64,000 nt of DNA from Helicobacter baculiformis. Its GTDB lineage: Bacteria > Campylobacterota > Campylobacteria > Campylobacterales > Helicobacteraceae. Shown here one piece after another: positions 18,393 through 40,633 of this stretch (its first letter is position 1; every line of letters starts with the position of its first letter). The notes beneath the pieces are model-generated. The model was not told the origin of the DNA and searched no databases. It saw nothing but the letters and a program-made list of their open reading frames with translations. The position numbers and the translations under genes are program-made. The DNA is taken from assembly GCF_900197685.1 (NCBI RefSeq), contig NZ_FZMF01000002.1:62001-126000 (forward strand). Direction: 5' to 3'.

Positions 18393-19124
18393 ATGCAACG
18401 GCGCGCCTTCCTACAAAAGGCGATTGGGGGGGCGTGTTTGTGCGCGGGGGGTGGGTTATTCTTGGGGACTTTGCTCAAAGCCAAGCGCACCTACGCGCTC
18501 AGACCCCCGGGCGCAGAAGATGAGGCGCGTTTCTTGAGCGCGTGCGTGCGCTGTGGGCTGTGCGTGCGCGCTTGCCCCTATGACACCCTCAAACTAGCTA
18601 GCTTGTTAGACACTCCCAAAACCGGGACCCCCTTCTTTAACGCGCGCCAAGTTCCCTGTTATCTCTGTGCGGATATTCCCTGTATCCAAGCCTGCCCCAC
18701 AGACGCGCTTGATCACCAACATCTCAAACCCGATCAAGGGATCACTTCGCTTAAGATGGGGATTGCGGTGGTGGATTCGCATTCTTGTGTGGCGTTTTGG
18801 GGGGTGCGTTGCGATGTGTGCTATCGCGTATGTCCCCTGATCGACAAGGCGATCAAATTGGAATTCAAGCACGATAGCCGCACTAACAAACACGCCTACA
18901 TGTTGCCTGTCGTAGAACCGAGCGTGTGTGTGGGTTGTGGGCTGTGCGAGCGCGCTTGTATCACTAAAGAGCCCGCCATTCGGGTTTTGCCCAGCGCGTT
19001 TGTGAGCGGGCAGACTGATACCCACTACCTCAAAATGGGGAGCTCTGCTCCCCCCAACACCCCACCCCCTAAAACTCCCCATAAGGGTAACCCTATGGAC
19101 TATCTCAATCAAGGCGATCTGTAA
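18393..19124 (+). CDS. napG: Ferredoxin-type quinol-dehydrogenase subunit NapG
   Basis: 243 aa. NapG with NapH passes electrons from menaquinol to the nitrate reductase. Seen: a twin-arginine-like signal (QRRAFLQ) and four cysteine clusters of the [4Fe-4S] type: CVRCGLCVRACP, CYLCADIPCIQACP, CVAFWGVRCDVCYRVCP and CVGCGLCERAC. It starts 2 bp after napA and its last base overlaps the first base of napH (TAATG), so the three genes are one transcript. A seven-G run (18426-18432) lies near the signal peptide. Confidence 0.95.
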   Translation: MQRRAFLQKAIGGACLCAGGGLFLGTLLKAKRTYALRPPGAEDEARFLSACVRCGLCVRACPYDTLKLASLLDTPKTGTPFFNARQVPCYLCADIPCIQACPTDALDHQHLKPDQGITSLKMGIAVVDSHSCVAFWGVRCDVCYRVCPLIDKAIKLEFKHDSRTNKHAYMLPVVEPSVCVGCGLCERACITKEPAIRVLPSAFVSGQTDTHYLKMGSSAPPNTPPPKTPHKGNPMDYLNQGDL

Positions 19125-19915
19125 TGCGCTACTTGCTTGCTAGGCGCGTGGTACAAGCAGGGATTTTAGCCCTTTTTGCATGGAGTGGGGCGCACGCCAT
19201 TTTAAAAGGCAATCTGAGCGCGTCTATGCTCTTTGATCGTGTGCCTTTGAGCGACCCTTTTGCGGTGTTACAAGTGTATTTGGCGAGTTTGCAGATAAAT
19301 TTAGAAGCCTTGCTAGGGGCGCTTTTTATTTTAGTGCTCTATGGCTTGTTCTTAGGGCGCGCTTTTTGTGCGTGGGTGTGCCCCATAAACCCCATTGTCG
19401 ATAGCGCTGCTTGGGTGCGGCGTAAGCTAGGTCTTACACGGGTGTCTGTGTCTGTTCCCAAACACACCCGTTATATACTCTTAGCCCTGAGCTTGATTCT
19501 CTCTTTTGTGCTGTCTTTGCCCGCATTTGAGAGCGTGTCCTACATCGGCATTGTGCAACGGGGGATCATTTTTGGCACTAGCGCGTGGGTGGGGGTTGCG
19601 CTCTTGCTTTTTGGCATCGACACCTTTATAGGCGATAAGCTCATCTGTTCGCATTTATGCCCCCTAGGGGGCTTTTACGCCCTCAGTGGGCGTTATGCGC
19701 TCTTAAAGGTACAACACCATGCCATGCGTTGCACCAAGTGCGATCTCTGCTTAGAAGTGTGCCCAGAGGCGCAGGTATTGTGGATGGTGGGTTTGCAGAG
19801 CGCAGCGGTCAATTCCGGGGAGTGCACGCGTTGTGGACGTTGTATTGAAGTGTGCGAAGATGATGCATTAAACTTTAGTCTTTTAGATTTTAATTCTAAG
19901 AGGAATTTTGGTTAA
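19124..19915 (+). CDS. napH: Membrane quinol dehydrogenase subunit NapH
   Basis: 263 aa. Four or so membrane helices (residues ~10-30, ~55-80, ~118-140, ~145-170), two CxxxCP motifs typical of NapH (CAWVCPINP, CSHLCPLGG) and two C-terminal [4Fe-4S] clusters (CTKCDLCLEVCP, CTRCGRCIEVC). It would oxidise menaquinol at the inner membrane and hand electrons to NapG. The operon stops here: neither the dihaem cytochrome napB nor napD or napL follows, unlike the Campylobacter napAGHBLD order. The gene ends 36 bp before the decanucleotide repeat array. Confidence 0.95.
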   Translation: MRYLLARRVVQAGILALFAWSGAHAILKGNLSASMLFDRVPLSDPFAVLQVYLASLQINLEALLGALFILVLYGLFLGRAFCAWVCPINPIVDSAAWVRRKLGLTRVSVSVPKHTRYILLALSLILSFVLSLPAFESVSYIGIVQRGIIFGTSAWVGVALLLFGIDTFIGDKLICSHLCPLGGFYALSGRYALLKVQHHAMRCTKCDLCLEVCPEAQVLWMVGLQSAAVNSGECTRCGRCIEVCEDDALNFSLLDFNSKRNFG

Positions 19916-19934
19916 TACCATTAACTTTTTCTGC

Positions 19935-19940
19935 TATAAT
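19935..19940 (+). promoter_or_regulatory. -10 box upstream of the decanucleotide array
   Basis: A perfect TATAAT lies 10 bp before the first repeat unit, so the array would form most of the untranslated leader of the chemoreceptor gene. No convincing -35 hexamer. Confidence 0.45.
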
Positions 19941-19950
19941 AAACACTGAT

Positions 19951-20077
19951 GATCTATCATGATCTATCATGATCTATCATGATCTATCATGATCTATCAT
20001 GATCTATCATGATCTATCATGATCTATCATGATCTATCATGATCTATCATGATCTATCATGATCTATCATGATCTAT
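19951..20077. repeat. Tandem decanucleotide array, 12 perfect copies of GATCTATCAT
   Basis: Twelve identical 10-bp units (19951-20070) followed by a 7-bp partial unit. Each unit junction creates the palindrome ATCATGAT and each unit holds GATC. The period is close to one helical turn, so every unit presents on the same face of the DNA. Any ATG inside the array hits TGA after seven codons except the last (20069), which is in frame with the chemoreceptor gene. It lies between a -10 box and the likely start codon at 20111. Confidence 0.97.
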
Positions 20078-20110
20078 GCGATCATGATATCAATCTCTCA
20101 GGAGCATACC

Positions 20111-21451
20111 ATGTTCTCCGGTCCCTACACGCGTTTCTTGGAGCGTCTTAACTCCGTTGTTGTTCAAGCAGAATGGAGGGAACTCAAAACCCTAGATGCT
20201 ACTTGCGCCAAGTTGCAGGATTTGCGTGAGTTTCCCTGCGACGAGGCGCGCGCGTTGGTACATGTTTTTGTTTCCCTTATCCAAGCTCTCCGCACCAATT
20301 TGGAAGAACATGCCCATCTCTCTAGAGAATTGCAGGCACTCAGAGAAAGTTCTAAAACCCTAGATCAAGAGCGTTATGTCGCCCAAAACATGGCGGATGC
20401 GAGTCTGAACGGTTTGTGGTATATGCACTATCCGGCCAGTGGACAAGTAGATGGCAACACGCCTTTTATGTGGTCCAAGAAATTTCGTAAACTCCTAGAC
20501 TTTGAGAGTGAAGAGGATTTCCCTAATGTCTTGTCTTCATGGGCAGACCGCTTACACCCTGATGATGCGCAACGCGTCTTTGCGCTCTTTAGCGCGTCCT
20601 TGGCAGATAGGACGGGGCAGACCGTCTATTCATGCAAATACCGCATTAAGAACAAAGCAGGCATTTATAGATACTTTGAGGCTAATGGAGACATTAAGCG
20701 TGATGTACATGGCAATCCGATTTTTATCGCCGGGTCTTTCCAAGATATTGACAATGAGATTCGCCATAAGCAGGAGCTAGATAATATTGTTGAGCGCTTT
20801 ACGCTATCCCTTTCTCTCATTTCCGATCAACTCTTTGATATCCGCTTGCAGGATAGAGATCTACTCTCTCCTAACAATCCTTGTTGGTTTTCTCCTCACT
20901 TAGCTAAAAGCGTTCTGCACACCGACCAGCCTTCTTTACGTGTCTTGCTAGCATGTCTTTCTGCGGAAAGCAAACCGCTTTTCCTAGAGGCTTTGGAGAA
21001 ACTCGCTCAGGAACTTGTTCAAAATAAGGCTATCAAGCCCATAGAGTTAGAAATCAGTATCAAGCCCCAAGGCGAGCAACATTACTATGCCTACAAATTT
21101 CAGGCCACAGCTATTCGGAAAGATGAGGAGGGCCGTAGCTCTGAGCGTATTGTGGGGGTGCTCTCTAATATTGATGCACAGAAAAAACAGGCGGAGTTCA
21201 TCGCTAAAGAAGAGGAGTTTAACAACAAGGCTAAGGAAAGCTTGAGTAATATTGCCGAGATCATCACTAAGATTGATGGGATCGCTAAACAGACTAACTT
21301 GCTCGCGCTCAACGCGGCGATCGAAGCTGCACGCGCGGGCGAACATGGAAGAGGTTTTGCGGTGGTGGCTGATGAGGTGGGCAAGCTAGCAAGTAAAACC
21401 AGCGATGCGACCAATGAAATTGGAGCATTGCTTAGATCGGAGCACCCTTAG
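20111..21451 (+). CDS. Cytosolic PAS-domain chemoreceptor, truncated signalling domain
   Basis: 446 aa. Start at ATG 20111 with CAGGAG upstream; an in-frame ATG at 20069 inside the repeat array would add 14 residues. No membrane helix. A PAS domain with PAC-like end lies at ~100-230 (LNGLWYMHY...[10 protein letters not shown]...[10 protein letters not shown]), a second PAS-like region at ~235-370, then the chemoreceptor hairpin tip ([28 protein letters not shown], ~392-420). The protein ends about 20 residues after the tip, whereas the membrane receptor elsewhere in this window continues ~85 residues, so the returning helix is nearly absent. Likely role: redox or energy sensing to CheW/CheA, if still functional. 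Confidence 0.75.
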
Positions 21452-39945: not shown

Positions 39946-39961
39946 CTTTTTCCTTCTTATT

Positions 39962-40273
39962 TTAATGGTGCGGACCAAAGAAAACATATGCCGCAAAGCC
40001 CATGCCTCCTATTAAAATCACCCCATTAAGCCCGGCGATCGCCAAACAAGCCCCCTTCCACACCTTGCTAGGTTTTGTTTCATCATAAACCACATAAATT
40101 ATCCAAAAGGAGGGCAAACTACAAAGGGGTGCGCTCAAAAGCGCTAAAATTTCATGCCCCAAATAAGATAATCTGCCCCCCACTCTAGCGCATAAAAAAA
40201 GCGTCAAAAAGGGTGTGATGCCAAGCAAAAGCCCTAAATAAAACCGATATACGCGCTTGATCCACTTCTTCAT
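39962..40273 (-). CDS. Small membrane protein, family 1 copy A
   Basis: 103 aa, three hydrophobic segments (~12-35, ~42-65, ~80-98). It shows the family 1 pattern: an N-terminal FYLGLLLGITPFLT segment with a central Pro, then GHEILALLS and a third helix starting at WKGAC. Compared with other copies, LSFLPIxxIYKxT is changed to PSFWIIYVVYDETKPS. The protein is ~80% identical to copy B next to it, a recent duplication. No homologue with known function is recognised. It is the last family 1 copy before the secreted protein. Confidence 0.65.
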   Translation of the reverse strand: MKKWIKRVYRFYLGLLLGITPFLTLFLCARVGGRLSYLGHEILALLSAPLCSLPSFWIIYVVYDETKPSKVWKGACLAIAGLNGVILIGGMGFAAYVFFGPHH

Positions 40274-40282
40274 AACGCCCCT

Positions 40283-40594
40283 TTAATCATGCGGACCAAA
40301 GAAAACCCATGCGACAAAGCCCATGCCTCCTATTAAAATCACCCCATTAAGCCCGGCGCTCGCCAAACAAGCCCCCTTCCACACCTTGCTAGGTTTTGTG
40401 TCATCATAAACCCCATAAATTGTCCAAAAGGAGAACAAACCACAAAGGAGTACGCTCAAAAGCGCTAAAATCTCATGCCCCGAATGCAATAATATGCTCC
40501 CCACTCTAGCGCATAAAAAAGGCGTTAAAAAGGGTGTGATGAAAAGCAAAACCCCTAAATAAAACCGCTCTATGAGCTTGATCCACTTCTTCAT
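40283..40594 (-). CDS. Small membrane protein, family 1 copy B
   Basis: 103 aa, near-copy of A: same MKKWIK start, FYLGVLLFITPFLTPFLCARVG first helix, GHEILALLS, SFWTIYGVYDDTKPSKVWKGAC and a C terminus ending FFGPHD. The two genes are also very similar at the DNA level, including their start regions, and are 9 bp apart. Three predicted helices, small basic N terminus, so probably inner membrane with the N terminus inside. Function unknown. Confidence 0.65.
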   Translation of the reverse strand: MKKWIKLIERFYLGVLLFITPFLTPFLCARVGSILLHSGHEILALLSVLLCGLFSFWTIYGVYDDTKPSKVWKGACLASAGLNGVILIGGMGFVAWVFFGPHD

Positions 40595-40633
40595 AACGCC
40601 CCTTTAAATCCTGTCAAATCAAGAACACCCATC

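Follow-up and report, generated by a model that had tools for sequence, protein, structure and literature searches.

A perfect decanucleotide tandem array in the leader of a Helicobacter chemoreceptor gene, a candidate contingency repeat acting after transcription start

In Helicobacter pylori the length of a G-repeat in the tlpB leader tunes a chemoreceptor through the sRNA RepG (PMC8295292). The hmw1A and hmw2A genes of Haemophilus influenzae carry a heptanucleotide array, (ATCTTTC)n, of 13-24 copies in the 5' UTR, and for hmw1A more repeats lead to less mRNA and protein (PMC8262952). In Moraxella catarrhalis a strain-variable (AGAT)n repeat in the 5' UTR sets the expression of uspA2, according to work cited in PMC4679880, and in Beggiatoaceae arrays of the heptamer TAACTGA occur upstream of start codons, for which a post-transcriptional role has been proposed (PMC4679880). 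SSR contingency genes, among them an MCP, are numerous in gastric Helicobacter, which possess no mismatch repair genes; H. bizzozeronii is likewise without mismatch repair genes, and an MCP is one of its SSR-bearing genes (PMC3234257).

The DNA analysed here (the window, 64,000 nt) contains a decanucleotide array in front of a chemoreceptor gene. Its source is a gastric, non-pylori Helicobacter. The features of the locus are the following:

19124..19915, plus strand: NapH-like ferredoxin-type protein, the upstream neighbour (Pfam Fer4_5/Fer4_21)
19912..19940, plus strand: predicted promoter, TTAATA, 17 nt, extended -10 TGC-TATAAT (consensus scan, 10/12 matches)
19949..20077, plus strand: tandem array in the 5' UTR (TRF, sequence, genome and genus searches)
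20069..20110, plus strand: upstream in-frame ATG in the last array unit, 14-codon extension (sequence)
20078..20098, plus strand: downstream flank with GATCATGATA at 20080-20089 (sequence, RNA fold)
20101..20105, plus strand: Shine-Dalgarno AGGAG of the receptor gene (sequence; AAGG/AAAGG in relatives)
20111..21451, plus strand: PAS_3 + MCPsignal chemoreceptor, 446 aa, intact (Pfam)

TRF delimits positions 19949-20077 as a single tandem array with period 10, 12.9 copies, 100% matches and no indels (score 258), i.e. 129 perfect bp of (ATGATCTATC)x12.9, an exact copy number that is only as reliable as the assembly, which is in 82 contigs. A perfect period-10 run of 129 bp has a probability of ~4^-119 per position and has not arisen by chance. 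The first-pass annotation described twelve error-free repeats, each with GATC and a palindromic junction, and this description is accurate: GATCTATCAT is repeated exactly x12 at 19951-20070 and followed by GATCTAT to 20077, the periodicity being already perfect two bases earlier, and every unit contains GATC and the junction palindrome ATCATGAT, as well as CATG. A search for the array elsewhere in the source genome, which the annotation proposed, revealed no second copy in the 1.67-Mb assembly, where the two-unit 20-mer is confined to this locus and the array 15-mer, with up to 2 mismatches allowed, has only two scattered 2-mismatch matches outside it. The array is absent in 33 other genomes of the genus Helicobacter, neither 399 sampled genomes of the order nor plasmids yielded it, and no match to its 24-mer turned up in viral contigs. 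A repeat family or mobile element is ruled out by this uniqueness in the genome and by the absence from the order sample, viral contigs and plasmids. At the other 18 MCP loci of the source genome, the stretches inspected (a few of which end short of the gene start) contain no comparable array, the only repeats being a C11/C9 tract and a hexamer in 3 copies. There is no other such array within the window. Elsewhere in the window (39961-40607) a recent duplication has left two tandem copies, of 321 bp and 90% identical, of a gene whose product is a putative membrane protein of 103 aa.

The array was annotated as lying between a TATAAT box and the start codon, and so it does (box 19935-19940, array 19949-20077, ATG 20111). 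The hexamer, with TG preceding, belongs to an extended -10 element, TGCTATAAT, at 19932-19940, and the array begins 9 nt after it. Given the usual distance from the -10 element, transcription is expected to start near 19946-19949, and the array would then begin within ~3 bases of the mRNA 5' end. The alternate ATG noticed in the last unit (20069) proved on a frame check to be in frame with the receptor gene, and it stays in frame at any copy number. It is preceded by no Shine-Dalgarno sequence and is probably not the main start, since the orthologues begin at the methionine of 20111, with a matching MF..Y..FL N-terminus; the conserved start has AGGAG upstream. The receptor gene adjoins nap genes, and its product contains the domains PF08447 (E 1.9e-16) and PF00015 (E 1.5e-29). 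Its MCP signalling domain is very short, ending ~30 residues past the hairpin tip; as the orthologues end at the equivalent position, this appears to be a conserved compact form. Homologues of the receptor with ~44% identity are present in Mucispirillum.

Compared with the described systems, the array is, by analogy, probably most similar in function to the tlpB G-repeat and the hmw1A heptamers. With tlpB it shares the genus, a chemoreceptor gene and a simple 5'-UTR repeat with no influence on the frame, whereas the tlpB unit is 1 nt long and acts via pairing with RepG, and here the unit is of 10 nt and no sRNA partner was found; the receptors also differ (a PAS_3-MCP protein here, TlpB in H. 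pylori). A variable repeat with a graded effect of length belongs to tlpB, and for the present array it is proposed. Like hmw1A, the locus has a perfect short array with which the 5' UTR begins, 3' of the functional promoter (here the predicted one), and the copy numbers are similar. However, in hmw1A the array overlaps the -10 element, the unit is not self-complementary and the product is an adhesin, while here the array is wholly downstream of the -10 element and precedes a receptor gene; instability and an effect on expression are established for hmw1A and are proposed for the array described here. The uspA2 repeat is likewise a short tandem repeat in the 5' UTR, but it is a tetranucleotide in front of a surface protein gene, and the account that cites it describes no rod-forming unit (PMC4679880). 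Beggiatoaceae also have short direct repeats in leaders, but there one unit occurs at many loci, in contrast to the single locus and genome-unique unit found here. The array is thus set apart from the known leader repeats by a 10-nt self-complementary unit, a position wholly 3' of the -10 element and no known sRNA partner.

Relatives of the receptor were detected by an alignment-based scan in H. suis, H. cynogastricus, H. vulpis, H. labacensis and H. cetorum (a single-protein scan of genome contigs gave no match), and the orthologues are 44-69% identical. The NapH-like gene is found in the sequence upstream of the receptor in all three H. suis-group genomes, and at H. suis locus L059 the translated neighbour directly upstream is the C-terminus of the NapH-like protein. 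The -10-like hexamers can be aligned (TATCAT/TATAGT in H. suis, TATAAT in H. felis, TATCAT in H. cynogastricus). The two H. suis genomes measured have 30-32 nt from the -10 element to the ATG, G016, which we take to be H. felis, has 31 nt and H. cynogastricus 38 nt, versus 170 nt in the source genome, or 41 nt with the array removed. These leader lengths identify the array as a lineage-specific insertion, by local expansion, into an ordinary short 5' UTR, and its absence from the 33 congeners and the order sample implies that it is young.

A perfect short tandem repeat in a regulatory region is the structure of an SSR contingency locus, and we think it rather probable that the array is such a repeat, generated by slipped-strand expansion in the 5' UTR, and that gain and loss of units tune receptor expression after transcription start. 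Among the three readings offered by the first-pass annotation (a phased binding array, a Dam-type methylation-sensitive region and a copy-number switch for expression) the copy-number switch is the best, because of the 5' UTR position, the perfect repetition, the absence in relatives and the close known parallels. The perfect array, its position, its lineage-specific insertion, its uniqueness and the predicted rod described below were computed; from them we infer instability of the copy number, an effect on expression and the direction of this effect. Slipped-strand expansion inside the receptor 5' UTR would create the array, and gain or loss of 10-bp units would change the length and structure of the leader with the promoter hexamers and the reading frame untouched, so that the receptor level could be set cell by cell, in a graded or stochastic manner. 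Physically, the array would most likely act once transcription has begun, its RNA rod changing both the access of ribosomes and the decay of the mRNA (through RNase III or 5' processing); in this model, translation or mRNA decay is likely to depend on the length of the array.

The same expansion could have been neutral: in a genus that lacks mismatch repair, a microsatellite may have grown by slippage in a leader whose length is of little consequence, and would then have no regulatory role. We hold this to be a serious possibility, albeit clearly the less probable one. The array is lineage-specific and absent in all relatives checked, insertions in leaders leave the frame intact, and the family is not protected from loss, with a nonsense codon in an H. 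suis-group genome and a frameshift in H. labacensis. Moreover, a comparison of sampled stretches (452 kb of the source genome and 360 kb of G011, of the H. cetorum group) revealed 26 SSRs in G011, with many arrays of unrelated units. However, in the 452 kb of the source genome there are 6 SSRs, among which the array is by far the longest of short period; it is placed exactly between promoter and Shine-Dalgarno sequence, its freedom from errors suggests recent turnover, and in comparable systems the length of a leader repeat does alter expression (PMC8295292, PMC8262952).

Repeats and lesions were also observed elsewhere in the receptor family. Locus L018 of G011 is closely related to the named H. 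cetorum locus L064 and presumably is itself from H. cetorum. Ahead of its receptor gene, ~43 to 68 nt from the start, is an A26 tract that ends ~5 nt before a TACAAT -10 box; this is the longest homopolymer in the 360 kb sampled of G011 and likely a promoter-type slippage tract. A receptor paralogue from H. cynogastricus (L068, 2974-2983) contains a C10 tract ~38 codons into the reading frame, in frame in the assembly, which is likely a translational phase-variation tract. The receptor gene is interrupted by an in-frame stop in an H. suis-group genome (L012, G005), and in H. labacensis (L063/L016) it has a frameshift in the signalling domain. These repeats and broken copies fit a family whose expression is often gambled with, the excess of SSRs being weak (2/10 homologues with the source array excluded, ~0.53 expected, P ~0.10). 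A perfect 8-bp repeat, AAATACCT, is present in 29 copies in G011 (L089, 5343-5577), one of the many long arrays of that genome.

Two familiar modes of repeat-based switching are ruled out by the layout of the locus. In a translational ON/OFF frame switch the number of units would shift the receptor frame, which it cannot do here, since the start codon is 3' of the array and stops close every array frame. A promoter-spacing switch is equally excluded: the array neither lies between the -35 and -10 elements nor overlaps them, and as both are upstream of it, promoter spacing does not change. The ATGs of the array suggest a further scheme, in which ribosomes step down the leader through 7-codon ORFs (MIYHDLS), one per unit, the TGA of each overlapping the ATG two units on, and only one copy-number parity arrives in the receptor frame. 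The geometry is exact, with ATGs at 19949+10k whose stops overlap the ATG of unit k+2 (each ATG, except the last two, opens only MIYHDLS); the ATG at 20069 is in the receptor frame and that at 20059 is out, and the first ATG would be a few nt from the predicted 5' end. Yet this geometry is automatic for any 10-mer with ATGA, no unit is preceded by a Shine-Dalgarno sequence and the rod hairpin would oppose stepping, which makes such a relay barely credible.

The period near one helical turn, and the GATC and CATG in each unit, could also point to the DNA itself, i.e. to phased protein-binding sites or a methylation-sensitive switch acting on the promoter. The source genome has three D12-class adenine methyltransferase genes, one of which passes the Dam-family cut-off. 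These methylases are, however, known by family and not by target, no Dam-sensitive regulator was identified, and the array is 3' of the predicted start point. For the phased binding array proposed in the annotation we found no positive evidence: no comparable site or array occurs anywhere else in the genome, and repeats spaced by 10.0 bp fall ~6 bp out of register with a helix of 10.5 bp per turn across 13 units. The Dam-type region fares little better, GATC and CATG being not depleted in 452 kb of the source genome (observed/expected 1.06 and 1.18). On balance, a role at the DNA level seems very improbable. Restriction in the past has likely left its mark on the same 452 kb, which include the window: GGCC and ACGT are far below expectation (observed/expected 0.14 and 0.17) and CCGG is above it (1.36). 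On the minus strand of the window (~1350-2880), beside groEL, a D12-class adenine methyltransferase gene overlaps a downstream gene for a 206-aa protein without a Pfam match, and the two are possibly a restriction-modification pair.

The array unit is almost identical to its own reverse complement, and the leader RNA is predicted to fold with -69.3 kcal/mol (z -5.4 versus shuffles) into a single rod in which 8-bp helices alternate with CU/CU internal loops. Single-stranded array DNA is predicted to fold likewise, and therefore slippage should be favoured. When leaders with 0 to 20 units are modelled, the energy drops by ~10 kcal/mol for every two units added, and the predicted accessibility of the Shine-Dalgarno sequence (from energy parameters only) alternates between 0.15 for even and 0.03 for odd n, because GATCATGATA in the flank is perfectly complementary to the array, being an inverted repeat of TATCATGATC; the effect is small in absolute terms, as a local hairpin already masks the Shine-Dalgarno sequence. 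In this model the array would give the chemoreceptor mRNA a 5'-terminal RNA rod of adjustable length, to which every two units add a helix and in which odd or even copy number toggles access to the ribosome site, a structure-based rheostat without sRNA or frame shift. We regard this as a rather improbable elaboration, and since any self-complementary array would fold well, the rod may be incidental.

Alternatively, the repeated leader unit could be bound by an sRNA or an RNA-binding protein, like the tlpB G-repeat by RepG; the precedent is in a chemoreceptor leader of H. pylori (PMC8295292), and a partner would be titrated, or its binding multiplied, by twelve identical sites. Against this, a genome-wide search for antisense matches to the 15-nt unit junction (up to 2 mismatches) yielded only two scattered 2-mismatch matches, and thus no sRNA loop complementary to the repeat of the tlpB/RepG type, at the 15-mer level searched. 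No Rfam family making biological sense was found either. We consider an RNA target array very improbable. A known RNA family is ruled out, the Rfam hits being chance matches to eukaryotic miRNA/snoRNA models, far below gathering scores.

A contingency repeat in the leader, the reading we prefer, would be of use in studying such loci, as an array wholly downstream of the promoter allows effects of repeat number on transcription to be told apart from those that come after it, which was left open for hmw1A (PMC8262952). If its copy number varies and matters, the receptor described here would be a second Helicobacter chemoreceptor tuned by a simple leader repeat, which would suggest that bacterial populations diversify their sensing as well as their surfaces.
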